A stretch of DNA of 64,000 nt from Tumebacillus algifaecis (GTDB lineage Bacteria; Bacillota; Bacilli; Tumebacillales; Tumebacillaceae): positions 2,409,001-2,473,000 of the forward strand of contig NZ_CP022657.1 in the NCBI RefSeq assembly GCF_002243515.1. The letters run 5' to 3'. A program made the position numbers and the translations under genes. The notes beneath the pieces were generated by a model. That model had not been told where the DNA came from. It saw only the letters and a list, made by a program, of their open reading frames with translations, and did no database searches. Position 1 is the first letter of the stretch, and every line of letters begins with the position of its first letter. This document shows positions 41,682 through 61,358 of this stretch, piece after piece.

Positions 41682-42563
41682 TTACAGATCGACCATCTCG
41701 CCGTACGTCTCCGGACGACGATCGCGATAGAATTGCCATTTTTGGCGGACTTCGTAGATCATCTGCTTGTCCATCTCTGCTACCAGCACTTCATCCTGAT
41801 CGCGAGCTGCGACCGCAACCATCTCGCCGCGCGGGTCGGCGAGGTACGATTGACCATAGAACTCGCCCATGTTCCACGGCGCTTCCACGCCAACACGGTT
41901 GATCGCCGCGATGTAGTACCCGTTTGCCACCGCATGGGCAGGCTGTTCTAGCTTCCAAAGGTACTCGGAAGTGCCTGCTACGGTCGCTGACGGGTTAAAG
42001 ACGATCTCCGCGCCTTTGAGCCCCAGCACGCGAGCACCTTCTGGGAAGTGGCGGTCATAACAGATGTAGACGCCGACTTTGGCATATCGGGTGTCAAATA
42101 CGTTGTACCCGAGATTGCCCGGTTTGAAATAGTATTTTTCCCAGAACCCGTGCGGCGGCTCGCCAGCCTCGACGTGCGGGATGTGATGCTTGCGGTATTT
42201 ACCGAGGTAACTGCCATCTGCATCGATCACCGCAGCGGTGTTGTACAGCGTACCGATGCCTTCTTTTTCATAGATCGGCAGGATGATGACCACTTCCAGT
42301 TCCTTTGCCAGCTTCATAAACAGTTGCGTGGTCGGACCCTGTGGAATTTCTTCGGCCGCTTCGTACCATTTCGGAGTTTGTTCTGCGCAGAAGTAAGGGC
42401 CGTAGAAGATCTCCTGCAGGCAGATGATCTTAGCGCCTTGCGAGGCGGCGTCGCGCACCATTTTGATGTGCTTGGCGATGGCCACCTCCTTGTGCACCGC
42501 AACCGGTTCGTCACCGTGAATTTCATGTTTGGCTTGGATAAGGCCGATTTTGACTTTGTGCAT
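41682..42563 (-). CDS. Beta-ureidopropionase (N-carbamoyl-beta-alanine amidohydrolase), nitrilase superfamily
   Basis: A 293-residue carbon-nitrogen hydrolase for the last step of reductive pyrimidine breakdown: N-carbamoyl-beta-alanine (or the beta-aminoisobutyrate analogue) to the free beta-amino acid, CO2 and ammonia. The start MHKVKIGLIQ at 42563 is supported by TAGGAGG. The Glu-Lys-Cys triad is visible: CLQEIFYGPYF, GKYRKHHIPH and VGVYICYDRHFPEGAR. It begins 16 bp after the hydantoinase and is the last gene of the run that starts in the synthetase genes, so its product would be free beta-alanine. Confidence 0.9.
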   Translation of the reverse strand: MHKVKIGLIQAKHEIHGDEPVAVHKEVAIAKHIKMVRDAASQGAKIICLQEIFYGPYFCAEQTPKWYEAAEEIPQGPTTQLFMKLAKELEVVIILPIYEKEGIGTLYNTAAVIDADGSYLGKYRKHHIPHVEAGEPPHGFWEKYYFKPGNLGYNVFDTRYAKVGVYICYDRHFPEGARVLGLKGAEIVFNPSATVAGTSEYLWKLEQPAHAVANGYYIAAINRVGVEAPWNMGEFYGQSYLADPRGEMVAVAARDQDEVLVAEMDKQMIYEVRQKWQFYRDRRPETYGEMVDL

Positions 42564-42579
42564 GGTCGTACAATACCTC

Positions 42580-43965: not shown

Positions 43966-45227
43966 CTGGCAGTTCCCCTCTCTTGTACCAATTCGCCCCA
44001 CGTCATGTGCGGTTTGCCAGTGTCCACCGGAATCATGTCGATGGCACCGTCCACCGGGCAGACCAGCGAACACAGATTGCAGCCGACACAGTCATCTTCG
44101 CGCACTTGCAGGATCTGCTTGCCGGTCGCTTTGTCTTCCACACGGTCGATGCACTGGTGGGACGCGTCCTCGCAGGAGATGTAGCACTTGTTGCAGTTGA
44201 TACACGTCTCCGTGTTGATGCGGGCTGTCACTTTGTAGTTCAGGTTCAACGAGCCCCAGTCGGACATGGTGTGCACCGATTTGCCGACGATCTCGCTGAC
44301 CGAATCGATTCCTTTTTCATCCAAATAGTTGTTGAGGCCATCGATCATATCTTCGACGATGCGGAAGCCGTGATGCATGACGGCGGTGCAGACCTGTACG
44401 TTCGTCGAGCCCATCAGCATAAATTCGACCGCATCGCGCCAACTCGAAATGCCGCCGATGCCAGAGATCGGCAGTGCGACCTGCGAGTCATGGGCGCATT
44501 CTGCGACCATGTTCAGCGCGATCGGTTTGACCGCCGGGCCGCAATAGCCGCCGTGTGCGCCTTTGCCGTCCACGTTCGGTTGCGGCAGCCACGAGTCGAG
44601 ATCGACACCGATCAGCGAGTTGATCGTGTTGATCAAGGAGATCGCATCGGCCCCGCCTTCGCGTGCAGCGCGGGCCGTGTAGCGGATGTCGGTGATGTTC
44701 GGCGTCAGTTTGACGATCACAGGCGTCGTCGCCACCTCTTTGATCCACTCCGTCTGTTGACGCACCAGCTCGGGATGCTGCCCGACGGCCGCCCCCATGC
44801 CGCGCTCCGCCATGCCGTGTGGACAACCGAAATTGATTTCGAGGCCGTCCACCCCGACCGCTTCCACCCGCTTGACGATCTCATGCCAGACTTCGCGAAC
44901 CGGGTCAACCATCAGCGAAGCAACCAAGGCCCGGTCAGGAAAACGCTTTTTCACTTCGGCCATCTCTTTTAAGTTCACTTCTAGCGATCGGTCGGTGATC
45001 AACTCTATGTTGTTCAGCCCCATCAGCCGCTGTGTGCCAACGCGATAGCCGCCAAAGCGGGAGGAGACGTTGACGATCGGGTCGCCGAGCGTTTTCCAGA
45101 CCGCGCCGCCCCAACCTGCTTCAAAGGCGCGCAGGACTTGGTAGCCGGTGTTGGTCGGAGGTGCTGAGGCCAGCCAAAACGGGTTGGGCGACTTGATGCC
45201 GCCCAGTTCAATGCGTAAATCGGCCAT
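43962..45227 (-). CDS. preA: NAD-dependent dihydropyrimidine dehydrogenase, subunit PreA
   Basis: A 421-residue flavin and iron-sulfur subunit reducing uracil or thymine to the 5,6-dihydro form. The N-terminal 300 residues are a dihydroorotate dehydrogenase-like FMN barrel (LASAPPTNTGY, LEINFGCPHGM, ISGIGGISSW). The C-terminal part holds two 4Fe-4S motifs (CINCNKCYISC and CVGCNLCSLVCP). AGAGGAGG precedes the ATG. It follows preT by 15 bp and overlaps hydA. Confidence 0.96.
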   Translation of the reverse strand: MADLRIELGGIKSPNPFWLASAPPTNTGYQVLRAFEAGWGGAVWKTLGDPIVNVSSRFGGYRVGTQRLMGLNNIELITDRSLEVNLKEMAEVKKRFPDRALVASLMVDPVREVWHEIVKRVEAVGVDGLEINFGCPHGMAERGMGAAVGQHPELVRQQTEWIKEVATTPVIVKLTPNITDIRYTARAAREGGADAISLINTINSLIGVDLDSWLPQPNVDGKGAHGGYCGPAVKPIALNMVAECAHDSQVALPISGIGGISSWRDAVEFMLMGSTNVQVCTAVMHHGFRIVEDMIDGLNNYLDEKGIDSVSEIVGKSVHTMSDWGSLNLNYKVTARINTETCINCNKCYISCEDASHQCIDRVEDKATGKQILQVREDDCVGCNLCSLVCPVDGAIDMIPVDTGKPHMTWGELVQERGTAR

Positions 45228-45242: not shown

Positions 45243-46604
45243 TTATACGGACAATGCGGCGGTGCTATGCAGCGCTTCATGGATCGAGCGTGCCGCCTGT
45301 TTGCCTTGTTGAGCGGCCGACACGACCATCGCGTCGGTGCCGCCTTGACCGCCGAAAATAAAGTCGCCAGCTGCGTAGACGCGCGCGCGGGACGTTTCCA
45401 ACGTCGCTTTGTTGAGCGTCGGAATGCCATGCTCATGCTGAAGTCCAAACGCTTCGATCAAAGGTAGCAAGCGGGTTTGACCGATCGCTTTGATCACAAA
45501 ATCAACTTCGATCGTCTTTTCGCTCCCTGCTACTGGCGTAGGTCTGCGGCGGCCCTTCTCATCCGCTTCCCCAAGTTCCATCCCGATCATCTCCACTGCG
45601 CTCACATGTCCGCCTGCACCCAAAATGCGGGTCGGCGCGCTCAACCAGCGGAACTCAACCCCATCTTGTTTGGCAAATTCGTACTCGAAGTCATAAGCGG
45701 TCATCTCATGTTCGGTGCGGCGGTAGTAAATCTGCACCACTTCGGCCCCGAGCCGCTTGGAGCAGGTTGCGGCGTCGATCGCCGTATTTCCCGCCCCGAT
45801 CACCGCCACTTTTTTGCCGACCATTGCGTCGGTCAGCTCCTTGGTTTTCGTATCTTCTACAAAGGCGATCGCGTCGAGCACACCGTCCAACTCTTCGCCT
45901 TCGATGTGCAGTTGCGGCACGGCCCCCATGCCCGGTGCGAGCAAGACCGCATCAAAGCTGGCCAGCAGTTCATCGGCGGAGATATCAGTGCCGACGCGCA
46001 CCCCATAGCGGAACGCAACGCCGAGCGCTTCCACCTGCTCCACCTCCCACTGCGGAATCTCCTGCGGGAGACGGAACGAGACGATGCCGTAGGTGTTGAG
46101 GCCACCTGCACGCTCTTTTGCCTCGAAGACGGTGACCGCGTACCCAAACCGTGCCAATTCGCGGGCGGCAGAAAGTCCGGCTGGACCCGCTCCGACCACC
46201 GCCACACGCAGACCGTTCGATTCCCCAGCTTGAAAGAGCGGCGTTTGCGCCTGCATCGCCCAATCGGTGACATGGCGCTGGAGCAGGCCGATGAGGATCG
46301 CTTTGTCCGATTCACCATTCAGGACGCACGCGCCTTCACAGAGTTCGGACGTAGGGCAGACCCGGGCGCAAGACGCGCCGATCGGATTGGCTTCCATGAT
46401 CGTGCGCGCAGAGCCAAGGAGATTGCCCGTGGCGATTTTTTTGATAAACGACGGGATGTCGATGCCCGTCGGACACGCATGCATGCAAGGAGCATCATAG
46501 CAGTACAGGCAACGGTTCGCTTCGTCCAACACCTCTTTTGGACGCAGCGGCGGCATGACTTCGTAAAAGTTAACGTTCAGCTTCGTGAGCGGATTCGCCA
46601 TCAT
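45243..46604 (-). CDS. preT: NAD-dependent dihydropyrimidine dehydrogenase, subunit PreT
   Basis: A 453-residue FAD- and iron-sulfur-binding electron-input subunit that takes electrons from NADH for PreA. N-terminal cysteine clusters (CLYCYDAPCMHACPTGID and CARVCPTSELCEGAC) bind Fe-S. The FAD motif is VVGAGPAGLSAARELA and the nicotinamide motif VIGAGNTAIDAA. The start is an ATG-ATG pair: the first overlaps the NRPS stop codon as ATGA, the second as TGATG, with a G6 stretch as SD inside the NRPS gene. Ribosomes finishing the synthetase could thus restart on preT. Confidence 0.95.
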   Translation of the reverse strand: MMANPLTKLNVNFYEVMPPLRPKEVLDEANRCLYCYDAPCMHACPTGIDIPSFIKKIATGNLLGSARTIMEANPIGASCARVCPTSELCEGACVLNGESDKAILIGLLQRHVTDWAMQAQTPLFQAGESNGLRVAVVGAGPAGLSAARELARFGYAVTVFEAKERAGGLNTYGIVSFRLPQEIPQWEVEQVEALGVAFRYGVRVGTDISADELLASFDAVLLAPGMGAVPQLHIEGEELDGVLDAIAFVEDTKTKELTDAMVGKKVAVIGAGNTAIDAATCSKRLGAEVVQIYYRRTEHEMTAYDFEYEFAKQDGVEFRWLSAPTRILGAGGHVSAVEMIGMELGEADEKGRRRPTPVAGSEKTIEVDFVIKAIGQTRLLPLIEAFGLQHEHGIPTLNKATLETSRARVYAAGDFIFGGQGGTDAMVVSAAQQGKQAARSIHEALHSTAALSV

Positions 46605-49600
46605 CGTCCCCCCATCGGTCGGCTGCGATCGATCCGCTTGATCATCCCAGCACCGCCATCACTTACGGCCGTGCCTTTTCTAGATTCGATCTTCGCCGCG
46701 ATTCCTTCGACAGTCGCCACTTCAAACAGGTCGCCTAAACTGTATTCAATCTTGTGCGCCTCTTTCACACGAGAGACGAACATCGTCGCTAACAAGGAGT
46801 GACCCCCGCGTTCAAAGAAGTTGTCGGCCGCCCCCACTTGCTCGATTCCGAGCAGTTCGCCAAACATCGCAGCCACTTGCTCCTCCAATTCGGTGCGCGG
46901 CTTGATATACGGGCGGTTGGCCGAAGTCAACACGCCACCTGGTGCCGGAAGTGCTTTGCGATCGATCTTGCCGTTGGCGTTGAGCGGAAACTCCTGAAGT
47001 GTGACGAAAACGGCTGGCACCATATATTCGGGCAGCGTTTGCTTCAAGAAGTCGCGCAGTAATGCCTCATCGGGCGTCTGACCAGGCTCGGCGACCAGAT
47101 AGGCGGCGAGGTTTTTCTCCCCTTGGTGTTCAAAGACGGTCAGCACCGCCTCTTTGACCTGTTCATGGCGGACGAGCACCGTTTCGATCTCGCCAATCTC
47201 AACGCGGAACCCGCGGATTTTCACTTGACCGTCCATCCGCCCGAAGAATTCGATGTTGCCATCGGGGAGGAAGCGCACCAAGTCGCCCGATTTGTAGCGC
47301 CGCTCGCCGTTTACGGTGATAAATTTCTCCGCGGTCAGCTCTTCACGGCCATAATACCCGCGCGTAACACCAAGACCCGCGATGTGCAGTTCGCCCGGTA
47401 CGCCGAGCGGAACCTCTTTGCCAAAGCGGTCACACACATAGAGCTGTGCGTTCGCGCAGCGCGTGCCGATCGTATATTTTTCACCTTCTTGACCGCGCTT
47501 TGCCAAGTATTCGGTCGCGAAGATCGACGTTTCGGTCGGACCGTACAACACGTACGACTCTGCATTGTGGAAGACTTCGTTCATGTCTTTGAGCAGCTGT
47601 GGCGACACCACATCGCCCGCCGAATAGAGCTGACGGAGCTTGTCAAAATTGGCGCCGTTCTCTTTCGCCTTCCGTCCAGCATCGACGATTTGGCGCATCA
47701 GACTCGGCACTGCATGCATGGTGGTGACTTCTTGCAACTCTTCGGTCAAGAGTTCTAGGTTGGTGATGTGCGCGCGGGTCAACACCTTCACACGAGCGCC
47801 GATCAGCAAGGGGTTCATCACTTCGAACAGCGAAACGTCAAAGGCAACCGAGACGACCCACGTCATCACATCGTCTGCAGTAAAGCCGCACGTCTTCTGC
47901 ATCGCGAACAAAGTGGAAAGCAGTTGGTGATGCTCGACCGCCACCGCTTTCGGAGTTCCGGTCGAGCCTGATGTATAGATCAGATAGGCCAGATTTTGCG
48001 ATGTGACATCAGTGACCAAATTATCGGTCGCATAGCCGGAGAGCGTTTCCCCGTCCGTGTCGAGGCAGATCAGGCGGGCGTCGTGAGCGGGGAGCTCTTG
48101 CGCCAGATGAGACTGCGTGACCATGACCGACGCTTTCGTATCCTGCAAAATGAATGCAGTGCGCTCCGCCGGGTTGCTCGGATCGATCGGCACATAGGCG
48201 GCCCCTGCTTTGAGAATCCCCAGCTCCGCCACGATCAGATCGATGGAGCGCTCGACGCATAGCGTGACGAGCGACTCGGTGCCGATGCCAAGCGTTTGCA
48301 GATGGCGAGCCAACTGGTTCGCGCGAGCATTCAGCTCGCGGTACGTCAAGGTCTGTCTTTCGCATTCTACTGCGATGTTGTCCGGTGTGCGTGCCGCCTG
48401 CTCTTCGATCAAGCGGTGGACACAGCTGTCGGCCGGGGCAGGCAGTTCACCGTTCCATGTTTTGAAAAGTTGCTGTTCCGCATCTGTCAGCATCTGCAGA
48501 TCATAGACCGGAGTGTCCGGGTTGTCTAAGAGGCTGGAGACCAGGTGGGTAAAATGTTCGGCCATGCGAGCGATCGTGCTCTCTTCAAACAGGTCGGTAC
48601 AATATTCGAAGCCACAGAGCAGTCCATCCGGCAGTTCCGAGCAGAAGAGCGACAGGTCAAATTTTGCAGTGCCGCTTTCGTGTGGGACTGTCGATAAGGT
48701 CACATCTTGCAAGTGCACTTCTTCGCGCGGCGTGTTTTGCATCGCAAAAAACACTTGGAACAGCGGCGAGTACGTGCGGTTGCGCTCCGGCTGCAATTCT
48801 TCGACCAGCTTTTCAAACGGGAAGTCCTGGTGTTCAAATGCATCGAGCGCATCTTTTTGGACGCGTTGCAACAGATCGCGGAAGCTTACGTTTTCCGACA
48901 GGTCGGCACGCATGACCAGCGTGTTGACAAACAGCCCGATCAACTTTTCGATGCCGTTGACGTTGCGCCCTGCGATCGGTGTGCCGACCCAGATGTCCTC
49001 CTGTCCGGTCCAACGGGCCAGCAGAACGTTGAAGGCAGCAAGCATTGTCATAAACATCGTCACGCGTTCCTGCTGATTAAAGTCTTGGAGCTTTTTCAAC
49101 AGATCGCCTGAAAGCATGTGCTTGTAAACTGTCCCGCGATAGCTTTGCACGACCGGGCGTTGCTTGTCGGTTGGCAGTTGTAGGATTGGCATCGAGCCGC
49201 CCAGTGTGTTTTTCCAATAGGAAAGCTGTTTCTCCAGCACGTCCCCGGTCAAGTAGTTAAACTGCCATTCTGAGAAATCTGCGTATTGGATCGTCAAGTC
49301 TGGCAGCGGAGAAGGTTGTCCTTTCGCGAACGCTTCGTAGATCGCCGCAAGTTCGGTGAAGAACACCCCCATCGACCAGCCGTCGGAGATGATGTGGTGC
49401 ATCGTGATCAGCAGCATGTGATCATCTGCAGCCAGTCGCAACAGGCGGGTTCGGACCAGCGGTGCCTGTTTGATCAGAAACGGCCGCGCAAATTCTTCTT
49501 TCGCCAGCTCCTGCGCTTTTGGAAAGCGCTCCTCGAGCGGAAGATACTGAAGATCGGTGATCGGAATCTCGACCACAAGCTCCGCGTTGACCAGCTGTTT

Positions 49601-49843
49601 CAAACCATCCTCCAACATTTCGAACGACGTGCGCAGCGTTTCGTGGCGGTAGATCATTTCATTGATCGTGTCGGTCAACGCGTCCAGATCGAGCTTCCCT
49701 TGCAGCCGCACAGCATTTGGCATGTTGTAAAACGGGTTGCCCGGCGAAAATTGATCGAGCACCCACATGCGCTGTTGGGCAAAGGAGGCGCGAAGTTCAT
49801 AAACTTCATCCTCATGAATCGTGTGTGTATTTGAAGTTGTCAA
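46601..49843 (-). CDS. NRPS single module C-A-T
   Basis: A 1080-residue synthetase starting at TTG with AAAGGA 9 bp upstream (no ATG fits). Domains are C (HHIISDGWS near residue 147), A (FDVSLFE near 665, YGPTETSIF), and T (RGGHSLLAT near 1010). The code read by eye is DVFHYALIFK, which I cannot assign. This A domain belongs to an unusual subtype with HAVPSLMRQIVD that recurs in the NRPS at 61888. There is no TE and only a short basic tail (IDRSRPMGGR). It begins 34 bp after the 2181-residue NRPS, and its stop overlaps preT, placing synthetase and pyrimidine pathway in one operon. Confidence 0.95.
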   Translation of the reverse strand: MTTSNTHTIHEDEVYELRASFAQQRMWVLDQFSPGNPFYNMPNAVRLQGKLDLDALTDTINEMIYRHETLRTSFEMLEDGLKQLVNAELVVEIPITDLQYLPLEERFPKAQELAKEEFARPFLIKQAPLVRTRLLRLAADDHMLLITMHHIISDGWSMGVFFTELAAIYEAFAKGQPSPLPDLTIQYADFSEWQFNYLTGDVLEKQLSYWKNTLGGSMPILQLPTDKQRPVVQSYRGTVYKHMLSGDLLKKLQDFNQQERVTMFMTMLAAFNVLLARWTGQEDIWVGTPIAGRNVNGIEKLIGLFVNTLVMRADLSENVSFRDLLQRVQKDALDAFEHQDFPFEKLVEELQPERNRTYSPLFQVFFAMQNTPREEVHLQDVTLSTVPHESGTAKFDLSLFCSELPDGLLCGFEYCTDLFEESTIARMAEHFTHLVSSLLDNPDTPVYDLQMLTDAEQQLFKTWNGELPAPADSCVHRLIEEQAARTPDNIAVECERQTLTYRELNARANQLARHLQTLGIGTESLVTLCVERSIDLIVAELGILKAGAAYVPIDPSNPAERTAFILQDTKASVMVTQSHLAQELPAHDARLICLDTDGETLSGYATDNLVTDVTSQNLAYLIYTSGSTGTPKAVAVEHHQLLSTLFAMQKTCGFTADDVMTWVVSVAFDVSLFEVMNPLLIGARVKVLTRAHITNLELLTEELQEVTTMHAVPSLMRQIVDAGRKAKENGANFDKLRQLYSAGDVVSPQLLKDMNEVFHNAESYVLYGPTETSIFATEYLAKRGQEGEKYTIGTRCANAQLYVCDRFGKEVPLGVPGELHIAGLGVTRGYYGREELTAEKFITVNGERRYKSGDLVRFLPDGNIEFFGRMDGQVKIRGFRVEIGEIETVLVRHEQVKEAVLTVFEHQGEKNLAAYLVAEPGQTPDEALLRDFLKQTLPEYMVPAVFVTLQEFPLNANGKIDRKALPAPGGVLTSANRPYIKPRTELEEQVAAMFGELLGIEQVGAADNFFERGGHSLLATMFVSRVKEAHKIEYSLGDLFEVATVEGIAAKIESRKGTAVSDGGAGMIKRIDRSRPMGGR

Positions 49844-49877: not shown

Positions 49878-52800
49878 CTACTTGCGAGTTCGCTTCGTGC
49901 TGGCCATGCGGTCTCTGACCGCGATTTTCGGCTGGGCGAACTCCTGCTCGTCAGCGGTTCGAATCTGTTCAATCAAGGCGGCCACCTCTTCGATTGTCAC
50001 CGCTTCAAACAGTTGTTTGAGCGGCAGGACAACGCCGAAGCTTTGCTGAATGGCCGTATGCACATGGGTCGCCAATAGTGAATGCCCACCGATTTCAAAA
50101 AAGTTATCGTGAACGCCAATCCCCTCTGTGCGCAGCAGCTGCTGCCAGATTTCGGTCAACCGTTGCTCCGTCTCACTCCGCGGTGCGACGTACGCCCGCT
50201 CTGATGCGGTCGTGCGCTCGGGCACAGGGAGTGCATTGCGGTCGATCTTCTGGTTTGGCGTCAATGGAAACGCGCGCAAGAAAACAAAGTTGCTTGGCAC
50301 CATATAATCGGGCAGTTTGTCTTTGAGCAGGGCGCGCAGCTCGCTGACAGTGGGTGCCTCCTCTGCCGCGATCAGATAGGCGACGAGTCGCTGATCTCCA
50401 GGTGCATCTTCACGGAGCAAAACGAGCGCATCGCTGATCTCCGTATGGCTTTGCAAGACCGCCTCGATTTCCCCCGTCTCGATCCGGAAGCCACGCAGTT
50501 TGACCTGATGGTCGATCCGGCCGTGGAAATCGATCTCACCGTTTGGCAACCAGCGGGTGAGATCGCCCGTTTTGTAGAGCCTTCCATACGGGCTCTCGAT
50601 AAAAGTTTTGGCCGTCAGTTCTTCGCGGTTCAGGTAGCCGCGAGCAAGTCCTACCCCTCCGATGTACAGTTCCCCTGGCACGCCGACCGGAACTGGACGC
50701 AGCGCCCGATCGAGGATGTACAGTCGGTTGTTGGCAAGCGGTCGTCCGATCGGAATCACCTGTGGGTCCGCGGTAAGTTCGACCCGCCAATAGGAAGCGA
50801 AGATACATGCTTCGGTGGGACCGTACATGTTGTAGATCTGTGCGGAGGGCAGTGACTCGGTAATGCGGGCACAAAGCTCATAGGACAACGGTTCTCCTCC
50901 GCACAATAGGTTGCGTAACGACGACCAGTTCCTGAATCCCGCCTGATCGACCAGCAACTTGACCTGCGACGGCACGGTGATGAAAAAGCTGATCTGCCGC
51001 TCTTGCGAAACTTCGAGCAGATACGCTGCATCCGTATGACGTCCCGGTTCTGCGATGACCAGTTCCCCGCCGATCAAGAGCGGCGCGAACAGCTCAACGA
51101 CCGAAACGTCAAACGAAAACGGCGTTTTCAGCAAAAAGCGATCCTGCTCGGTCAAGGAGTTCGTATCGATGAGCCAACGTGTGTTATTGACCACGGAGCG
51201 GTGTGAGAGCATCGCCCCTTTTGGACGACCCGTTGAGCCAGAGGTGTAGATCACATAGGCAAGGTTGTCCGGAGTGACTTGCACCGCCGGAGCGACAGCG
51301 CTCTCCGCTGCGACCAGATCCCACTCGCTATCCAAAGCGATCACGTTCGCCGCTCCTGCATGCGCGGCCAGACGCTCGCGCAGATGGGACTGGGTCAGCA
51401 ACACCGCCGCCTGCGCGTCTTCGATCATGAAGGCGAGACGGTCGTTTGGATAGTCTGGGTCGAGCGGGACGTAGGCACCGCCCGCCTTCAACACCCCATA
51501 GACGGCAACGATCATCTCCAGCGACCGCTCCGTGCAGATTCCGACGCGCACATCGGGGCCGACACCGAGCTTCTGCAGATGGTGTGCCAGTTGGTTGGAA
51601 CGCGCTTGCAGTTCGCCATAGGTCGTGCACTGCTCTTGGTAGCGCAGCGCGATCGCATCAGGCGTTGCATCCGCTTGGCGGTCAAACCATTCGTGAAGGG
51701 TCAATTCCGCCTCCGGTACTTCTCGCTCCGTTTGGTTCCATTCGACGATGATTTTCTCCTCTGCTGTTGCTGAGATCAGGTTGTAGTCACAGATTTGTCG
51801 GTCGATGTTCTCGGTGATGCTTTGCAACAAGCTACAGAAGTGAGCGAGCATCGATTCGATCGTCGCCCGATCAAACAGATCGGCATTGTATTCGAACACC
51901 CCGCGCAGACCGTTTTCGTTATCGACCATGTTGACAACAAAATCGTAGTCGATCGATTCCTTTTCCACGCCGAGGCGCGTCAGCATCATGCCTGGCAACT
52001 GCACCTTCAGCCCTTCCACCTGTAGCGCGGAGCCCGGCGTATTCAACAGGGCGAACACCGCCTGCACCAGCGTGGCATGGGAGGTGCTGCGCTCTGGCCG
52101 CACCTCTTCGACCAGTCGTTCAAACGGCACGTCCTGATTCGCATAGGCGTCGAGCGTGGTACGTTTGACGCGGGCGAGCAGGTCGCGAAACGTCGGATTG
52201 CCAGACAGATCGGTGCGCAGCACGATCGTGTTGACGAAAAATCCGATCAGCCCTTCCACCTCTTCACGGGTGCGGTTGGCCACAGGCGAGCCGAGCAAGA
52301 TGTCATCTTGGCCGGAATAGCGCGACAACAGCGTGTTGAACGCCGCGAGCAACAGCATGTACAAAGTGACCCCTTCTTGCTGGCAGAGCTTGTGCAGATC
52401 GTCTGACAGCGTTCTCGGCACTTCAAACGCCAACGATTGGCCTCGAAAGGTCTGAGCGGCTGGCCGCGGCCGATCGGTCGGCAGTTGCAGGACGGGCAGC
52501 GAGCCAGCTAGCTGCTCGCGCCAATAGGTGAGCTGTTCTTGGAGCAGTTCACCTTGTAGCCACTCGCGCTGCCACACGGCAAAGTCAGCATATTGAACGG
52601 GCAATTCGGCAAGCTGTGACGGCTTGCCATGCGCATGGTGATCGTACAGGTCCAGCGTCTCCTGATAGATGCGGCTCATCGACCAGCCATCGGTGATGAT
52701 GTGATGCATGATCAGCACCAAGATGTGGTCTGCTTCTGACAAGCGCAGAAGCGTCAGCGAAAAGGGAGGCACTACATCTAGCTGGAACGGTCGTTTGTAC

Positions 52801-55800
52801 AGTTCAGCGATGCGTTGCTGCGCATGCGGGAATCGCTCCGATTCGGGCAGGTCTTGCAGGTCGATCAAATCGAGTGTCCGCGGCTGGTACGGCAGTATTT
52901 TCTGCACCAGTTTGCCTTCTGTCATCAGGAAGGTGGTACGCAGATTTTCATGGCGGGAGATCAGATCATTGAACGCCGCCTGCAGAGCAGCCAAGTCGAT
53001 CGCGCCTTCGATGCGTACGACTTCCGGGATGTGATAGGTCGGCGTGCCTGGAGAAAGTTGTTCGAAGAACCAGAGACGCTCCTGCGACGATGACATCGGC
53101 AATTGCTCGGTGCGGGGCTGTGGTAGCACTGGCCGTGTCTGCACACCGCGCGTGTCCCGCTTCGCCACTTCGATCTGTACTGCCAACGCGTGAAGCGTCG
53201 GCGTTTCAAAAAAGAGTTTTAACGGCAACTGCACATCGAACGCTCGGCGCACGCGCGATAAGATTTGCGTCGCCAACAGCGAGTGACCGCCAAGCTCAAA
53301 GAAATTTGCCGTGGCGCTCACCCGTTCCAAGCGCAGCACTTCCTGCCAAATCCCAGCCAATTCCGCTTCGACGCCAGTGCGTGGCGCCACAAACGTCTGC
53401 TCTGCCAGTCCTTGACCTCGATCGGGCGCCGGAAGCGCCTGTCGATTGACCTTCCCGCTTGGTGTGAGCGGCAAAGCATCGAGCATGACGAACGCAGACG
53501 GCGCCATATATTCGGGAAGTTTGTTGAGCAAAAAGAGTCTCAGGTCACCTGCGCTCAGCTCTCGTCCCACATGTGCGACCGTGTAAGCGACGAGGCGCTT
53601 CTCGCCTGGGATGTCTTCGCGGGCGGTCACGACTGTCGAGTGCACTCCGTCATGTTGAACCAGTGCCGCTTCAATCTCACCCAGCTCGATGCGGAAGCCG
53701 CGTATCTTGACCTGATTGTCGATTCGTCCCAAATACTCGATGTTGCCGTCTGGCAACCAGCGCACGATGTCCCCCGTCTTGAACAGACGTCCTGTCCCAA
53801 ACGGATTGGGCACAAACCGTTCCGCCGTCAAATCGGGCCGCTGATAATACCCTCGTGCCAACACAGCACCGCCAGCGTGCAATTCGCCTGGCACGCCGAT
53901 CGCAGTCTGCTGCATGTTGCGGTCGAGGATGTAAAGTTCTGCGTTGGCAATCGGACGTCCGATCGGGATGTTGACCGCATCATGCGACACCGCTTCCGTC
54001 TCGTACCAGGTGACATCGGCCGCGACTTCGGTCGAGCCATATAGATTGAGCAAAAGCGCTGTCGGCACCGCTTTTTGGAAGCGCTGCGTCAGTTCGACCG
54101 TCAGCGCTTCCCCACTGCAAACCCAAAAGTTCAGGTCGGGCAACTCTTTTTGCAGATCGTCATAGCTGTCAAGCAACGCGCGCAATAAGGACGGCACGAG
54201 CACGATCCGTGTCACGCGTTGCGTTCGCAGGGCCGGAACAAAGTGCTCAATGTCTTTGACTGCCAAATCAGAGAAGATCACGAGCGGCACGCCTTGCAGG
54301 AGCGGCCCCCAGATCTCCCAGATCGAATCACCGAAATTGAGCGACGTTTTCTGCGCGCACACCTCGCCCGAAGCAAACGGGTAACGCTCCCACATCCAGT
54401 GGAAGCGGTTGACCATCGCGCGGTGCGTGCCTTCGACCCCTTTCGGTTGGCCTGTCGAGCCCGACGTGTAGAGGACGTACATCACGCTGCCGGCGTCCGA
54501 TTTGACGTCCAGCCCCGCCGTGCTCTCCTTGGCGATTTCAGCCCAGTCGGCATCGAGGCAAATCGTTTGGGCATCGTGAACGGGCAGTCGCTCGAGCACG
54601 CTGGCTTCGGTGAGCAACAGGCGGACAGCAGAGTCCTGCAACATGTACGCTTTGCGTTCCTCCGGATAGCCGGGATCGATGGGAACATACGCTGCCCCCG
54701 CCTTGAGAATGCCGAGCAGCCCGATGATCATGGCAGGCGTTCGCTCCATCGAAATCCCGACCAGCGTTTCCCTCTCCACGCCCTGCTTCTGCAGGAATCG
54801 CGCCACTTGGTTCGCCCGCTCCTCCACTTCGCGAAAGGACAAGCTCTCATTTTCAAACAGGAGCGCAGGGGCATCTGGCGTTCTTGCGGCTTGCGCGGCA
54901 AACAGTTCAGGCACCGTCGCATCCTTTGGAAAATCGGCGGTCGGCCCGTTCCATGCTCCGGCACACAAATCGATCTCCCGCTCAGTGAGCAAAGACAGCG
55001 TGGCGATCGGTTGGTCGGCATCGCTCAAGATGCTGTGCAACAAGTTTTGGAAGTGTGCACCCATGCGTTCGATCGTCGCTCGGTCGAACAGGTCGGTGTT
55101 GTATTCGAATTTCACGAGCAGTCCCGCCTCTTTTTGCATCACATAAAGCGAGATGTCAAACTTGGACGTACCGCTGTCCAATTCGCGGGCTTGCAACTGC
55201 AAACCTGGCAGTTTCAGCTCGGGCACTGGGGCATTTTGCAATGCGAACAACACTTGGAACAACGGGGAAAAGCTCATGTTGCGCTCAGGTTGCAGGTGCT
55301 CGACCAATTTTTCAAATGGCAGGTCCTGGTTGGCAAACGCGCCGACCGCCGTCTGTTTCACGCGGGAGAGCAGACTGCGAAACGACAGGTCACCGCTGAC
55401 ACCTGTGCGCAGGACGATCGTGTTGACAAAAAAGCCGATCATCCCTTCGATCTCCGCTTTGTTGCGGTTGGCGATCGGGGAGCCTACTGAGATGTCCTCC
55501 TGCATGGTATAGCGATAGAGCAATACTTTAAAGGCGGATAGCAGTGTCATGTAAAGCGTGACATCTTCTCGTTTGCTGAACGCTTCTAAGCGCTGCTCCA
55601 ATGCTTTGGGCACCCAAAAATCGTACGTTGCACCTGCAAAAGTCTGCATCGCCGGGCGCGGGCGGTCGGTAGGCAGATGAAGGGTCGTCAAGCCTTGGCC
55701 CAGCTGCTCCTGCCAATATCCAAGCTGCTTTTGCAACACCTCGCCTTGCATCCATTCCCGCTGCCAGTGTGCAAAATCGCCGTACTGCACGGGAAGTTCG

Positions 55801-56423
55801 GGGAGCGGAGAGGGCGACCCCGCCAAAAATGCTTCATAGAGTGCGACCATCTCCCCGATCAGCACGCCGAACGACCAGCCGTCACCGATGATGTGGTGCA
55901 TGACGAGCACCAGCGTATAATGGTCTGCCCCATGCTGTAGCACGGTCGCGCGCAGGAGCGGGCCGGACGTCAAATCGAACGGCCGCTTCGATTCGGATGC
56001 GATCTGCGCTTCCAACTCCGCTGCTGCCAGGTCGGTCACATCCAGCAATGGAATGGTCAACCTCAGATCTGACAACACCGTCTGCATCGCTTCCTCTTCC
56101 CCTGCTGAAAACACGGTGCGCAACACTTCGTGGCGGGAGATGACCTCCCAGAGCGCGCGCTCGAGCACGTCGAGGTGCAGGTCGCCTTTCATCTGCACCG
56201 CATATGGGATGTTGTAGGTCGCCGTGCCCGGTTCCAATTGATCGAGCAGCCAGACACGCTGTTGCGAGAAGCTGAGCGGTGTGCGGCCAGACGGGCGGCG
56301 CGGGATTCCGTTCGGTTTGCCCGCTGCTTTTGCCGCTTCGCCGCGCATCCGCCGCTTGAGCAGTTCACGCTGGGCGGGGGTGAGGGTGGAACGCTTTTGT
56401 AAAATGTCAGTTTTGTTGTCCAT
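49878..56423 (-). CDS. NRPS two modules C-A(beta-Ala)-T-C-A-T
   Basis: A 2181-residue synthetase, 23 bp after the PKS; GGAGGTG lies about 11 bp before the ATG. Domains: C1 (HHIIGDGWS near 176), A1 about 500-1000, T1 (LGGHSLLATQ 1042), C2 (HHIITDGWS 1239), A2 about 1575-2070, T2 (IGGHSLLATH 2110). A1 has NFGDSIWE where normal domains have FDxSVWE. Its code GDWVVSLADK lacks the Asp235 that holds an alpha-amino group and matches the beta-alanine code VDWVISLADK in eight of ten positions. A2 reads DVVILGMIFK, unassigned. C1 should join the acyl chain from the PKS to beta-alanine. The gene is in the same run as the beta-alanine-forming enzymes. Confidence 0.96.
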   Translation of the reverse strand: MDNKTDILQKRSTLTPAQRELLKRRMRGEAAKAAGKPNGIPRRPSGRTPLSFSQQRVWLLDQLEPGTATYNIPYAVQMKGDLHLDVLERALWEVISRHEVLRTVFSAGEEEAMQTVLSDLRLTIPLLDVTDLAAAELEAQIASESKRPFDLTSGPLLRATVLQHGADHYTLVLVMHHIIGDGWSFGVLIGEMVALYEAFLAGSPSPLPELPVQYGDFAHWQREWMQGEVLQKQLGYWQEQLGQGLTTLHLPTDRPRPAMQTFAGATYDFWVPKALEQRLEAFSKREDVTLYMTLLSAFKVLLYRYTMQEDISVGSPIANRNKAEIEGMIGFFVNTIVLRTGVSGDLSFRSLLSRVKQTAVGAFANQDLPFEKLVEHLQPERNMSFSPLFQVLFALQNAPVPELKLPGLQLQARELDSGTSKFDISLYVMQKEAGLLVKFEYNTDLFDRATIERMGAHFQNLLHSILSDADQPIATLSLLTEREIDLCAGAWNGPTADFPKDATVPELFAAQAARTPDAPALLFENESLSFREVEERANQVARFLQKQGVERETLVGISMERTPAMIIGLLGILKAGAAYVPIDPGYPEERKAYMLQDSAVRLLLTEASVLERLPVHDAQTICLDADWAEIAKESTAGLDVKSDAGSVMYVLYTSGSTGQPKGVEGTHRAMVNRFHWMWERYPFASGEVCAQKTSLNFGDSIWEIWGPLLQGVPLVIFSDLAVKDIEHFVPALRTQRVTRIVLVPSLLRALLDSYDDLQKELPDLNFWVCSGEALTVELTQRFQKAVPTALLLNLYGSTEVAADVTWYETEAVSHDAVNIPIGRPIANAELYILDRNMQQTAIGVPGELHAGGAVLARGYYQRPDLTAERFVPNPFGTGRLFKTGDIVRWLPDGNIEYLGRIDNQVKIRGFRIELGEIEAALVQHDGVHSTVVTAREDIPGEKRLVAYTVAHVGRELSAGDLRLFLLNKLPEYMAPSAFVMLDALPLTPSGKVNRQALPAPDRGQGLAEQTFVAPRTGVEAELAGIWQEVLRLERVSATANFFELGGHSLLATQILSRVRRAFDVQLPLKLFFETPTLHALAVQIEVAKRDTRGVQTRPVLPQPRTEQLPMSSSQERLWFFEQLSPGTPTYHIPEVVRIEGAIDLAALQAAFNDLISRHENLRTTFLMTEGKLVQKILPYQPRTLDLIDLQDLPESERFPHAQQRIAELYKRPFQLDVVPPFSLTLLRLSEADHILVLIMHHIITDGWSMSRIYQETLDLYDHHAHGKPSQLAELPVQYADFAVWQREWLQGELLQEQLTYWREQLAGSLPVLQLPTDRPRPAAQTFRGQSLAFEVPRTLSDDLHKLCQQEGVTLYMLLLAAFNTLLSRYSGQDDILLGSPVANRTREEVEGLIGFFVNTIVLRTDLSGNPTFRDLLARVKRTTLDAYANQDVPFERLVEEVRPERSTSHATLVQAVFALLNTPGSALQVEGLKVQLPGMMLTRLGVEKESIDYDFVVNMVDNENGLRGVFEYNADLFDRATIESMLAHFCSLLQSITENIDRQICDYNLISATAEEKIIVEWNQTEREVPEAELTLHEWFDRQADATPDAIALRYQEQCTTYGELQARSNQLAHHLQKLGVGPDVRVGICTERSLEMIVAVYGVLKAGGAYVPLDPDYPNDRLAFMIEDAQAAVLLTQSHLRERLAAHAGAANVIALDSEWDLVAAESAVAPAVQVTPDNLAYVIYTSGSTGRPKGAMLSHRSVVNNTRWLIDTNSLTEQDRFLLKTPFSFDVSVVELFAPLLIGGELVIAEPGRHTDAAYLLEVSQERQISFFITVPSQVKLLVDQAGFRNWSSLRNLLCGGEPLSYELCARITESLPSAQIYNMYGPTEACIFASYWRVELTADPQVIPIGRPLANNRLYILDRALRPVPVGVPGELYIGGVGLARGYLNREELTAKTFIESPYGRLYKTGDLTRWLPNGEIDFHGRIDHQVKLRGFRIETGEIEAVLQSHTEISDALVLLREDAPGDQRLVAYLIAAEEAPTVSELRALLKDKLPDYMVPSNFVFLRAFPLTPNQKIDRNALPVPERTTASERAYVAPRSETEQRLTEIWQQLLRTEGIGVHDNFFEIGGHSLLATHVHTAIQQSFGVVLPLKQLFEAVTIEEVAALIEQIRTADEQEFAQPKIAVRDRMASTKRTRK
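53435..54925 (-). other. Beta-alanine-type adenylation domain
   Basis: The residues were taken by eye: G and D from NFGDSIWE (positions 235 and 236), W239, V278 in TRIVLVPSLL, V299 and S301 in FWVCSGEAL, L322 in LNLYGSTE, A330 and D331 in EVAADVTW, and the invariant Lys. The shift of Asp from 235 to 236, together with W239, V278, S301, L322, A330 and D331, is the published pattern for beta-alanine. A beta-aminoisobutyrate preference cannot be excluded; Gly instead of Val at 235 gives more room. Confidence 0.8.
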
Positions 56424-56446: not shown

Positions 56447-59400
56447 CTAGTAGCTCAAAGCCTCTTCGTCACTCAGTTTGGAGATTTCTTCGATGATCAG
56501 TTCTTCGATGATGATGGCAAGTTCGGCGACAGTCGATGCTTCAAACAGGATGCGCAGCGGCAAATCGACTTGGAAGGAACTGCGCAGACGAGTGATCAGC
56601 TGTGTGCCGAGCAGCGAGTTGCCGCCCAATTGGAAAAAGGAATCGTGCACGCCGACCGCTTCAATGCCAAGCAGATCTTGGAAAATCTCGGCGATCAGCT
56701 CTTCCCCTTCATCTCGCGGGCCGACATAGGCGGTGTGCAGATTGGGACGGGCGTGCGCCTGACCGACAATTTTGTCGTGCATGCGGTCGCCATCACCCAT
56801 TTGTCGTTCAAATCGAATCCATTTGTTCAGCGCGGAGGTCAGGTCTTTAGGCGAAACGATCAGTGTAGACGCTTGCTCCTGCGCCAAGACGCGGCCGATC
56901 GCATCGAGCATTTGGGCGCTTTCGCCTGGCTCCCAGTTGACCAGCAACCACGGGAATGATCCTTCGCGCTGTTGGTTGTTGGCGAACGTGTCGAGGAACA
57001 GGTGTGCGGCTGTCGGCGCCACCAGTCCGATGCCGCCAAGGATGGACGAAAGCGACGAATTGATCAGGAAGAAATCGAGCGGTTTGTCGGCAAACAGTTT
57101 TTGCAAAGCGTACGCTCCAAAGATGCGCGGCTTGAAATGCGGTTCACATTCGGCAAATGTCGTCTCGGCGATCGTCGTCATCGTGTCGCGATCGACGAGG
57201 CCCGCGGCGTGGATGACACCATGAATCGTGCCCCATTCTTGCTCGGTGGCTTTAATGACAGCGGCCATCTGAGATTCATCCGAAACATCGGCTGTGACGA
57301 CACGCACTTCCGCACCGAGCGCCTCTAGACGGCGCACGTTGTAGATGCGTGTGCCGATGTGGTCTTCGAAGTGCTCCCCTGCCAGCGGGTCGGCCCACTG
57401 TTCGCGGGATGGAAGCGGTGTGCGGGTGACGAGGACGAGCTTGGCTTGCACCGTTTTGGCCAGGTACTCGGCGTACCAAGTGCCAAATGCGCCGAGGCCG
57501 CCCGTGATCAGATACACACCCTTCTCCCGTAGACGACGTGGACGCTCCGCCACCTGTGGCAACCGGTGTGGCTCGAACGCTTGCACGAAGCGATGCTGTC
57601 CGCGGTAACCGACCAGACGGTCTGCGCTGCCCGCAGCCAACTCGTGGAGCAACTGCGTTTGCAAGCGCTCGCCTTGCGCGGAGGACAGCTTCGGCAGACG
57701 CACATCGATCATGCGGCACGTGATGTTGGTGTATTCCTGCGGGATGACTTTGCAGGCGGCGAGCAAGGTCGCTTTTTCGGCAAACGGTAGATCGATGCTC
57801 TCGATCTCACCGATCCGGTCGGCGATCACCCAGAGATCGAGCGGATCGGCGATGTGCAGACGAGAGATCGTCTTGGCGAGATGGAGCAGTGAGTACAGAC
57901 CGAGCGTCTGCGCCAGTTCGAACTGCCCTGCCAGATCACGGTCGCCAGTCACGCCAAAAAGGTGTAGGATCGCTTCGGGCGTTTTGTCCTGCTGGAGCAG
58001 GTCTTGCAGCACCCGTTCGTAATCGGTTGCTGAAGCAGGATCGATCACATAGCGCCCAGCATCAGTCTTTTCATAGCGCTCTCCAGCATGGACCTGAAAC
58101 ACTTCATCTTCTTGTGCGGTCAGACGGTTGGCCAGCGCTTCACCCAGCCCCTCCCGATCGACAAAGACCAGCCAGCGCGACCGCTTTTTGGGGGAACTCT
58201 GCGGCATGGCGAGGTTCCGCTTCCAAGTCGGGAGGGAGAACCAGTCGGCCACGTCCGCCTTGACCTCTTGCTCGGGGATTGCCATGCTGGTGCTACCTAC
58301 GGTCGCGTGGTGCGGCTCGATCCAGTAACGGCGACGTTCGAACGGATAGGTTGGCAGTGGCACGCGCAGGCGTTGCTCTTCGGCGCTAAACGCTTTCCAG
58401 TCGATCTCCACCCCTTCTAGCCACAGCTGTCCGAGCGTGCTAAGCAGGACCTCCACATCGGAGCGCTGGTCAAACGAAGCGCGCATGGTCGGGAGTACGG
58501 TGCGACCGGGCAGATTTTGCACGACAAAGCTGGACAAGGTCTGCCCTGGCCCGACTTCGAGCAACAGCAGATCAGGGTCCTCGCAAAGGGTGTGGACGCC
58601 TTCTGCAAAACGTACCGTCTGGCAGAGGTGGCGCGACCAGTACGCCGGGTCGGTCACTTCATCTGCAACCGCCCACGTTCCCGTCACATTGGACAAATAC
58701 GGTAGCTTCGGAGCCTGCGGATTGGCACGCTTAACCAGTTCGGTCAGTTGCGCTGTGATCGGCTCCATCAACGGCGAGTGGAACGGATGGGTTGATTGCA
58801 CGCGAGAGCAGGCGACTCCTTTGGCCAGCAGTTCCGCTTCCAACGCGGCGATCTGCTCATGCGTACCAGAGAGCACGCAGTGCTTCGGTGCATTGAACGT
58901 TGCGAGGTACACACCAGGGGACAACAGCCCCTCTACCTCTTCCGCACTCATCGGCACGGCCAGCATCGCGCCACCCGGCAGTTCTTGGATCAGCTGAGCG
59001 CGTTTGGCGATCAGCATCAAGGCCGCTTCCAAGCTGAACACTCCGGCGTGGCAAGCTGCCACATATTCACCGAGCGAATGGCCGATCATCGCCTGTGGAC
59101 GCACACCCCATTCGATGAGCAGACGGCTTAGCGCATATTCGATCACAAACATCGCTGGCTGAGCATAGCGCGTTTCGTTCAGCGTTTGGGAAGCGAGATC
59201 GGCCTCCCCGTCACGGCGCAACATTTTGCGCAGATCGAACGCTTGTCCAGACTGCTCGTCGCTCCTCGCCGCTTTTGCCGGATCGAACAGCAGATCACGC
59301 AGGTCTGCATCCAGATGTTTATTCAAAATCTCACAACATTCATCGACCGTTTCCTTAAATAGCGCTTCGGTCTGGTACAGTTCATAACCCATGTTGATGT

Positions 59401-61027
59401 ACTGATCGCCAACGCCAGTGAACAGAAATGCCACTGGGCGCTCACGCATCGGCGCGGTGCGGCTCATCAAGCGCAACGGATCGCGCAAGCTCAGCGCCTC
59501 TGCCCCCTGCTCGCGGTTCTGTACGACCAGCGCACGACGGGCTGCAAAGCTTTTTCTGCCCACTTGCAACGTGTAGGCGACATCTGCCAATTTTTGCTGT
59601 GGATGTGCGGTCAGATGCGCAGACAGGTTGTCGGTCGCGTCCTCCAATGCGGTTTCCGTTTTGGCTGACAGCAGCAACAACTGCCACGGTCTCGCCGCTT
59701 CCCCGCTCCCATGCTCAGGCGCTTCTTCCAACACGGCATGCACGTTCGTGCCGCCCAGTCCGAACGAGGACACGCCAGCACGGCGCGGCGAGCCGTCCGT
59801 TTCCCATCGGCTCAGTTTGGTGTTGACGACAAACGGGGAATTTTCGAAATCGATCTTCGAGTTGGGCTGTTCAAAATTCAAGGTCGGCGGTATCTCACCA
59901 TGTTGCAGGCTTAACACCGTTTTGATCAGTCCGGTCACCCCGGCTGCGGCATCGAGGTGGCCGACATTCGTTTTCACAGATCCGATTTTGCAAAATCCGG
60001 TGCGGTCAGTGCTGAGCTGAAACGCCTGTGTCAGCGCCGCAAGTTCGATCGGATCGCCAAGCTCGGTGCCTGTCCCGTGCGCTTCGATGTACGTGATCGT
60101 GTCCGGCTCCACGTCGGCCATGGCCAGCGCTTCTGCGATCGCCTGGGACTGGCCCTCGACGCCCGGTGCAGTAAAGCCCACTTTTTGCGCACCATCGTTG
60201 GTGATCGCACTCCCTTTGATCACCGCATAGATCGTATCGCCATCCAGCACAGCGTCTTCCAGCCGCTTGAGCACGACCACACCTAGACCGCTGCCCGGCA
60301 CCGTCCCTTTCGCGTTTTCATCAAAGGCGCGGCAGTGTCCGTCCGGCGACAAGATCGAGCCGCTGACATAGGTGTAGCCTGCTGCCTGCGGAACGGCGAT
60401 CGACACGCCGCCTGCCAAGGCCAGATCGGTATCACCGATCAACAGACTTTGGCAAGCCAGATGCACGGCTGTCATCGAAGTCGAGCAAGCGGTGGAGACC
60501 GACACGCTCGCCCCTTTTAAATCAAGCTTGTGCGAAGTGCGGGTGGCGACATAGTCTTTGTCGTTGGTGATCATCAGTTGAACATGTCCGACCCCGTCCA
60601 CCAGTTCACGGTTGGGAAGCAAGTTGAACAACAGGTAGCGGGAGATTCCCGTTCCCGCAAATACGGAGATCGTTCCGTCATATTGGTCCGGATCATAGCC
60701 CGCATGTTCGAGTGCCGACCAAGCGGTTTCTAAAAACAAGCGGTGCTGCGGGTCCATGATTTCCGCTTCCCGTGGGTTAAAACCGAAAAAGGCGGCGTCA
60801 AACTCCTCCACCCCGTCTAGCGCCGCATTCGCTTTCACAAAATTTGGGTCTTGCAATTTGGTATGACTCACTCCTGCTGCGAGCAGTTCTTCATCGGTGT
60901 AAAAGCGCACCGACTCCACTCCATCGCGCAAGTTGTTCCAAAACTCCTCAATATTTTTCGCTCCTGGGAAGCGGCCAGACAATCCGACAACTGCGATCCC
61001 ATCCAACGTTCGATCCTCTTGGCTCAT
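56447..61027 (-). CDS. Type I polyketide synthase module KS-AT-KR-ACP
   Basis: About 1526 residues; the start is ATG 61027 (AGGAGG 10 bp away) or TTG 61033 (5 bp away). The ketosynthase has Cys in STACSTSM near residue 178 and His motifs EAHGTGTELGDPIE and NVGHLDAAAG. The acyltransferase has GHSLGEY near 648 and HPFHS, the malonyl-CoA type. The ketoreductase keeps the NADPH motif GGLGAFG near 1174, but the usual Tyr and Asn of YxxxN are Pro and His (LVAPTAAHLF near 1333), so reduction is doubtful. The carrier domain has Ser in LGGNSLLG near 1467. It has no loading domain, so it extends an acyl or peptidyl chain from another protein by two carbons and passes it to the beta-alanine module 23 bp downstream. 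Confidence 0.96.
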   Translation of the reverse strand: MSQEDRTLDGIAVVGLSGRFPGAKNIEEFWNNLRDGVESVRFYTDEELLAAGVSHTKLQDPNFVKANAALDGVEEFDAAFFGFNPREAEIMDPQHRLFLETAWSALEHAGYDPDQYDGTISVFAGTGISRYLLFNLLPNRELVDGVGHVQLMITNDKDYVATRTSHKLDLKGASVSVSTACSTSMTAVHLACQSLLIGDTDLALAGGVSIAVPQAAGYTYVSGSILSPDGHCRAFDENAKGTVPGSGLGVVVLKRLEDAVLDGDTIYAVIKGSAITNDGAQKVGFTAPGVEGQSQAIAEALAMADVEPDTITYIEAHGTGTELGDPIELAALTQAFQLSTDRTGFCKIGSVKTNVGHLDAAAGVTGLIKTVLSLQHGEIPPTLNFEQPNSKIDFENSPFVVNTKLSRWETDGSPRRAGVSSFGLGGTNVHAVLEEAPEHGSGEAARPWQLLLLSAKTETALEDATDNLSAHLTAHPQQKLADVAYTLQVGRKSFAARRALVVQNREQGAEALSLRDPLRLMSRTAPMRERPVAFLFTGVGDQYINMGYELYQTEALFKETVDECCEILNKHLDADLRDLLFDPAKAARSDEQSGQAFDLRKMLRRDGEADLASQTLNETRYAQPAMFVIEYALSRLLIEWGVRPQAMIGHSLGEYVAACHAGVFSLEAALMLIAKRAQLIQELPGGAMLAVPMSAEEVEGLLSPGVYLATFNAPKHCVLSGTHEQIAALEAELLAKGVACSRVQSTHPFHSPLMEPITAQLTELVKRANPQAPKLPYLSNVTGTWAVADEVTDPAYWSRHLCQTVRFAEGVHTLCEDPDLLLLEVGPGQTLSSFVVQNLPGRTVLPTMRASFDQRSDVEVLLSTLGQLWLEGVEIDWKAFSAEEQRLRVPLPTYPFERRRYWIEPHHATVGSTSMAIPEQEVKADVADWFSLPTWKRNLAMPQSSPKKRSRWLVFVDREGLGEALANRLTAQEDEVFQVHAGERYEKTDAGRYVIDPASATDYERVLQDLLQQDKTPEAILHLFGVTGDRDLAGQFELAQTLGLYSLLHLAKTISRLHIADPLDLWVIADRIGEIESIDLPFAEKATLLAACKVIPQEYTNITCRMIDVRLPKLSSAQGERLQTQLLHELAAGSADRLVGYRGQHRFVQAFEPHRLPQVAERPRRLREKGVYLITGGLGAFGTWYAEYLAKTVQAKLVLVTRTPLPSREQWADPLAGEHFEDHIGTRIYNVRRLEALGAEVRVVTADVSDESQMAAVIKATEQEWGTIHGVIHAAGLVDRDTMTTIAETTFAECEPHFKPRIFGAYALQKLFADKPLDFFLINSSLSSILGGIGLVAPTAAHLFLDTFANNQQREGSFPWLLVNWEPGESAQMLDAIGRVLAQEQASTLIVSPKDLTSALNKWIRFERQMGDGDRMHDKIVGQAHARPNLHTAYVGPRDEGEELIAEIFQDLLGIEAVGVHDSFFQLGGNSLLGTQLITRLRSSFQVDLPLRILFEASTVAELAIIIEELIIEEISKLSDEEALSY

Positions 61028-61189
61028 CTTCAAAATGCCTCCTGACGGTGCCTGAGTTCTTCAGTTAATCTTGATAAAAATTAAGAAACCGTTATTTTCC
61101 TTGCTCCTCTTCATATTCTTTGTTCTAAAATCGGAAACCTCCTTAAAGCGCTTAATTTATTACCGAATTGTCGAAATAAATCCGATCAA

Positions 61190-61217
61190 AAAGGAACAGC
61201 CAATCGGCTGTTCCTTT
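61190..61217 (-). terminator. Rho-independent terminator before the PKS gene (copy A)
   Basis: Stem AAAGGAACAGCC/GGCTGTTCCTTT with a 4-base loop; on the minus strand it is followed by TTTTT. It is nearly identical to the hairpin at 61858-61885, differing only in the loop. Confidence 0.8.
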
Positions 61218-61358
61218 CAGATTGCAGACAAATGCCCTTCTTGACTGGGGACAAATCCTCCCGCAGCTCGCCATCCATTTCCCTGACCGTATTGACCTTC
61301 ATCTTCGGTAATTATGGCTTTCTGTACTTTTCACAAAATTATTGACAGACCCAACTAA

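Follow-up and report, generated by a model that had tools for sequence, protein, structure and literature searches.

What does a polyketide synthase (PKS) module pass on when its ketoreductase (KR) has lost the residues that make it a reductase? The question is raised by P0001, a PKS module gene of the type KS-AT-KR-ACP, 1528 residues long, recognised from its open reading frame and domain matches at 56447..61033 on the minus strand of the window, by which is meant the whole 64,000-nucleotide stretch of Tumebacillus algifaecis DNA that was analysed and to which all positions refer. Judged by its sequence, P0001 is part of an antibiotic-type assembly line. Annotated at the level of domains, the module has a KR and is predicted to leave a hydroxyl, whereas the residues within the domain point to a ketone. 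The reading favoured here, with a probability of roughly 0.78, is that the KR is a reductase-dead, C0/C1-like domain which is kept as a structural scaffold, such that the β-ketoacyl chain would be passed on as it is.

The remainder of the module has the appearance of a working cis-AT PKS module, with KS, AT, KR and ACP on one chain and with the KS cysteine, the AT serine and the ACP serine all present. The KS domain (residues 10-437; 59723..61006, on the minus strand, as are all the features of this gene) contains Cys183, His319 and His359, which by their motifs are presumably the active site. The AT domain (residues 536-852; 58478..59428) has Ser653 within GHSLGE and an HPFHS motif at 749-753, the latter presumably the mark of a malonyl-type domain, while the ACP (residues 1440-1515; 56489..56716), assigned by domain match and motif, has Ser1473; their motifs mark Ser653 and Ser1473 as presumptive functional sites. 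Since KS, AT and ACP are apparently intact, extension of the chain by one malonyl unit is expected, and HPFHS suggests that there would be no α-substituent on the chain. In other words, the malonyl-type AT together with the intact KS and ACP would give a β-ketoacyl-ACP without an α-substituent. The KR consists of a structural (psi) subdomain (residues 936-1165; 57539..58228), found by domain match and in an AlphaFold model, and a catalytic subdomain (residues 1170-1420; 56774..57526), found by domain match, alignments and the same model, which is predicted to be reductase-dead. By profile, the domain is a PKS ketoreductase of the SDR type (PF08659, E 3.5e-36), and its fold agrees, the model matching KRs with Z scores of 37-34.

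The lesion lies in the catalytic subdomain, where the tetrad reads R1303-S1326-P1340-H1344 against K-S-Y-N in solved KRs, with three of the four catalytic residues gone. Arg1303 (57125..57127) is at the Lys position, Pro1340 (codon CCG, 57014..57016) at the Tyr position and His1344 (codon CAC, 57002..57004) at the Asn position, leaving Ser1326 (57056..57058) as the catalytic Ser; Pro1340 and His1344 fall within LVAPTAAHLF, residues 1337-1346 in the minus-strand frame. The first-pass annotation had proposed that Tyr was replaced by Pro and Asn by His, and both replacements are borne out by alignments of many KRs, including three solved ones, MlnE (5d2e), 6ulw and PksJ (5ktk), which have Y and N in the rows aligned to P1340 and H1344. 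The change of Lys to Arg and the missing lid segment described below go beyond what it had noticed. Moreover, at the place of NSSLSSILGGIGLVAPTAAH in the window, two KRs of the same bacterial class but of other families, L079 and L080, have NSSLSSILGGIGLVAYTAAN, a version of this segment that contains Tyr and Asn. Alignment, which had been proposed as the check on whether another Tyr occupies the catalytic position, reveals none, the Y of the solved KRs aligning to P1340. A displaced catalytic Tyr is ruled out, since residues 1309-1425 contain no Tyr at all, the nearest being Y1308; a sequencing accident behind PTAAH is likewise ruled out, the motif recurring in the orthologue from a second species, G006, and in T. 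avium (there after a 1-nt deletion). The NADPH motif, earlier reported as an intact GGLGAFG, is indeed complete, and is found as TGGLGAFG at residues 1177-1184 (57482..57505). A KR that still reduced, with other groups substituting for Tyr, could draw on this motif and on Ser1326, but with Tyr, Lys and Asn all replaced, no Tyr in the segment searched and the lid absent, such an enzyme is scarcely credible.

The lid is lost through a shortening of the chain. In other KRs the αFG lid helix sits in the segment that here runs from W1367 to just before VLAQEQ (56891..56935), according to PMC11228615 and PMC5331325. This segment, which follows a strand ending in NW, has 15 residues in the window KR, as opposed to 34-58 in lidded KRs (34-44 in all but one row, L002, which takes the range to 58), and the lid stretch is thus shorter by about 20 residues. 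The two-subdomain KR fold is kept in an AlphaFold model drawing on 17 sequences (mean pLDDT 89.3, pTM 0.90), in which only four residues join strand 442-447 to helix 452-464, so that the lid helix is absent. The best structural matches of the model are PKS and NRPS-associated KRs, namely 6ulw (Z 37.2), 5d2e (Z 36.7) and DEBS KR1 (Z 35.8). Of the features expected of a competent A- or B-type KR, therefore, the domain has, by sequence, the glycine-rich NADPH motif but neither the tetrad nor the lid. With Tyr, Asn and Lys lost, and with no lid helix to complete the substrate pocket, the ketone would be neither protonated nor positioned, and the earlier proposal that this KR cannot reduce is in this respect well supported. 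No description of a lid-less KR was found in the open-access literature searched.

Reductase-incompetent KRs are in themselves an established class, and in one survey 12% of actinobacterial β-module KRs were of C-type (PMC11228615). On the definition given there, C0/C1 domains have lost the catalytic Tyr or the NADPH site, and the window KR falls among them by its change of Tyr to Pro; those C0/C1 domains that retain Tyr are mutated in the NADPH site instead. Like the window KR, C0/C1 domains (PMC11228615; PMC5331325) combine a KR fold with lost catalytic residues and an expected β-keto product, the difference being that the window KR is without Tyr, Lys, Asn and the lid segment while its nucleotide motif is intact. 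C2 domains, defined in PMC11228615 by a retained Tyr and an absent NADPH motif, show the reverse pattern. The epimerising C2 domains (DEBS KR3; PDB 3qp9, titled as a C2-type KR) resemble the window KR in that a non-reducing fold is kept in the module, but according to PMC11228615 and PMC5331325 they mostly retain Tyr, have a better conserved Lys and an altered NADPH site, and act on α-substituted substrates, whereas the window KR has neither Tyr nor Lys and is accompanied by an AT that looks to be malonyl-type. The nearest solved relatives, MlnE of macrolactin, PksJ of bacillaene and 6ulw, share the two-subdomain fold at 19-24% identity in structural alignments, but keep K-S-Y-N. Inactive KRs are already known; what sets this one apart is that a constrained domain has lost Lys, Tyr, Asn and lid together, and that its relatives form a graded set.

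P0001 has orthologues in two other Tumebacillus species, G006 and G005 (T. avium AR23208, NZ_CP021434.1), with 80% identity over the matched stretches, and the PTAAH lesion is present in three out of three genomes of the genus; as judged from these sequences it is old and fixed in Tumebacillus. A search of genome contigs with the two closest KRs returned a single locus, that of T. avium. In the T. avium copy (L028, L091) one nucleotide is missing from a G run immediately 5' of the dead active-site segment; this splits the frame, PTAAH being read past it. This deletion may be a true gene break or an assembly error, and, with either the gene broken or the assembly wrong, it stands as a point against the scaffold reading.

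Beyond the orthologues, the KR alignment contains 53 distinct rows (there were 55, but two, L005 and L068, are second readings of the window and T. avium copies and were removed before the KR tree was built), a 60-bit filter having excluded the more diverged KRs with Tyr replaced by Asn (L006, L007, L009/L042, L047 and L048). At the catalytic Tyr position there are 44 Tyr, five Pro and four Asn. Eight of the rows are lid-less; as the surveys of other genomes scored up to six first-look candidates per genome and took loci for at most 30 matches, there may be more such KRs elsewhere. These eight are precisely the rows with His for Asn, a residue seen at that position in none of the 45 lidded ones. 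Seven of them are from Tumebacillus and one, L086, is from another family (G257). Five read PxxxH, comprising the window, its G006 orthologue and a group of L033, L034 and L035, and three read YxxxH (L003, L088 and L086); the genus thus has a second module with a PxxxH lid-less KR and a third with a YxxxH one. A KR survey of 398 genomes of the phylum added nothing to the survey at class level. In the KR tree the seven Tumebacillus lid-less rows group together (96/80) with the five PxxxH rows nested among them (97/89), L086 being unplaced. A KS tree was built from 39 modules, rows with a KR state unreadable in the available stretch being excluded. One of its clades (98/97) contains 16 Tumebacillus modules, six with PxxxH lid-less KRs, two with YxxxH lid-less KRs and eight without a KR, and within it a sub-clade (95/91) joins the six PxxxH modules to six KR-absent ones. 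KR-less KS-AT-ACP modules of the genus (L049, L094, L104 and L109) are thus near to the window module by KS and are likewise expected to keep a β-ketone, but they have no KR region, the gap from AT to ACP being 103-133 residues as against 588 in the window module.

This mixture of lid-less and KR-absent modules looks like stepwise loss. The sequences suggest that the lid went first, together with the change of Asn to His, that Pro then replaced Tyr and Arg replaced Lys, and that other modules lost the whole KR. This order is to be read with the caveats that some forks of the trees are weak, that L086 has no settled place in the KR tree and that its KS lies outside the 16-module clade. Indeed, since the KS of L086 (L101) is outside that clade, lid loss may have occurred twice. 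Elsewhere in the KS tree, 11 modules form a group of their own (94/87) in which the KR has exchanged Tyr for Asn but retains Lys and the lid; the exchange was read in every one of the 11. As the PxxxH and Tyr-to-Asn modules fall in different KS groups, the family has probably seen at least two losses of Tyr. Among the best nine KR-family matches in the window genome, six modular KRs (L004-L009) are without the catalytic Tyr. Four of these six (L004, L006, L007 and L009, in the modules L093, L099, L092 and L042) belong to KS-AT-KR-ACP modules with Tyr changed to Asn and lid kept, the other two Tyr-less KRs being PxxxH; the four modules share with the window module its architecture and the loss of Tyr, but differ from it in their separate KS group and in keeping Lys and lid. 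A related hybrid PKS-NRPS module on plasmid pLCT2 of Bradyrhizobium sp. LCT2 (L146) has another dead KR, whose tetrad reads H-S-H-Y and whose nucleotide motif is broken, the other two KRs examined among 20 plasmid matches listed, the cyanobacterial L144 and L145, being intact.

The manner in which the dead domain evolves bears on whether it is kept or is being lost. Comparison of the window species with G006 by the NG86 method, in which a dS of about 1 is near saturation and makes the figures rough ones, gives a dN/dS of 0.065 for the KS, 0.128 for the AT and 0.058 for the ACP, 0.160-0.163 for the catalytic KR half, and 0.246 for the psi-KR half (residues 940-1165), the highest in the gene. 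For the same pair of genomes, two KRs with K-S-Y-N have values of 0.198 and 0.114, the remaining pairs of Tyr-less KRs lie at 0.118-0.231 and the YxxxH pair is at 0.175. Accelerated evolution of the dead catalytic half was not seen, its value of 0.16 lying inside the intact-KR range of 0.11-0.20, and from this it follows that the domain is maintained, being constrained about as live ones are. No stop codons occur in the catalytic half in either the window genome (G000) or G006. That the KR is simply decaying, with no retained function and a presence that is historical, would be in keeping with the KR-absent modules of the same KS clade and with the psi-KR half having the top dN/dS of the gene (0.25); but the constraint on the catalytic half, the stop-free copies and a KR fold predicted with high confidence render simple decay unlikely. 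A structural scaffold, although dead as a reductase, is the preferred reading. For the earlier suggestion that the KR has gained another role, nothing was seen except that purifying selection of the ordinary kind acts on the domain.

The intact nucleotide motif sits uneasily with a scaffold, being needless for a purely structural domain. In this regard, a non-reductive catalytic or binding task, such as a cofactor-dependent conformational role or the gating of the ACP, would explain both the kept TGGLGAFG and His1344, and could call upon the His in eight of eight lid-less KRs and upon the purifying selection. No KR activity, however, is known to use such a P/H lid-less site, the sister PxxxH KRs of the L033 group lack one of the motif's glycines, and the His may be a mere fold-compatible replacement, such that a task of this kind is very unlikely. 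The cofactor binding that the first-pass annotation had held likely has evidence on both sides, the window KR having kept its glycine motif and its sisters having lost one glycine, with the covering lid gone. A broader possibility, itself quite unlikely, is that the lid-less KRs in which His has taken the place of Asn are a subtype put to a new use, as a non-reducing and perhaps nucleotide-sensing scaffold by which the ACP transfer of unreduced chains is gated, and are not relics bound for deletion. The role of a non-reducing KR fold in a module is a practical question in PKS engineering, and the graded Tumebacillus series (lid-less YxxxH, lid-less PxxxH, KR absent and, separately, lidded with Tyr changed to Asn) could test of what use such a fold is to its module.

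On the scaffold reading, the β-ketoacyl-ACP would go to the first C domain of P0002, an NRPS gene with the domains C-A-T-C-A-T and an N-terminal βHD-like docking segment (49878..56423), which is followed by P0003, an NRPS of C-A-T with no TE (46601..49843), both assigned by domain matches and both, like the genes that follow them, on the minus strand. In P0002, the code positions of the first A domain, placed by the GrsA frame, give G-D-W-L-V-S-L-A-D. The β-alanine code of A domains is V-D-W-V-I-S-L-A-D-K, a string that was not found in the open-access literature searched, and the two are presumably close; A1 of P0002 probably loads β-alanine. Directly 3' of the NRPS genes, at 41682-46604, is a complete-looking reductive pyrimidine pathway, consisting of a PreT-like NAD(P) oxidoreductase, named from gene context as a dihydropyrimidine dehydrogenase subunit (45243..46604), PreA, the other subunit, by an NCBIfam equivalog above cut-off (43962..45227), an amidohydrolase read from domain match and context as a dihydropyrimidinase (hydantoinase; 42580..44073) and a CN-hydrolase read likewise as a β-ureidopropionase (41682..42728). 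The PKS gene, P0002, P0003 and these four genes are syntenic in three of three Tumebacillus genomes, and the set of four is likely to be a dedicated supply of β-alanine. The PKS ends in an acidic C-terminus, ...SKLSDEEALSY, and P0002 carries LTPAQRELLKRRMRG near its N-terminus; by eye, tail and N-terminus are read as a docking pair of the SLiM/βHD class (for which see PMC9113145). Because of the docking pair, the A1 code and the adjacency of the pathway in all three genomes, the unit made by the module is likely to be a putative 3-oxoacyl-β-alanine, and the product a β-ketoamide, such that the ketone which the first-pass annotation had placed next to β-alanine appears to have been a good inference.

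A ketone on the assembly line need not persist in the final product. In the pepstatin pathway, whose PKS has no KR, β-keto intermediates are reduced by PepI after the assembly line, and the andrimid module, which has no KR region altogether, keeps its β-ketone, as the window module is expected to do (PMC12081711). A separate enzyme could in the same way reduce or process the ketone left by the dead KR and give a hydroxylated product. Such a step seems improbable, although a distant gene could act, in that a Pfam scan of window ORFs, which covered the small ones in part, brought up no SDR, PepI-like or other obvious β-ketone reductase, and a search of the genome for the KR family gave no second match within the window. 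A literature search on Tumebacillus NRPS and PKS systems yielded nothing on this cluster.

The module order was read only for the step from the PKS to P0002. The upstream NRPS gene (61888 onward) lies 855 bp from the PKS gene and ends in its own TE; the gap at 61033-61888 contains a small minus-strand ORF (61426-61608) that looks like a signal peptide, and in T. avium this gap is far larger, at an estimated 24 kb or so. Elsewhere in the window, an NRPS at 28059-34436 has the order A-T-C-A-T-C, with A as its first domain, C as its last and no TE, and between two NRPS regions (34544-41389) are hutH, hutU, hutI and hutG of histidine utilisation together with an MFS transporter. Immediately after a 4563-residue NRPS is a tryptophan 2,3-dioxygenase-like gene (16563-17288; PF03301, a partial match), which might supply a kynurenine-type residue.
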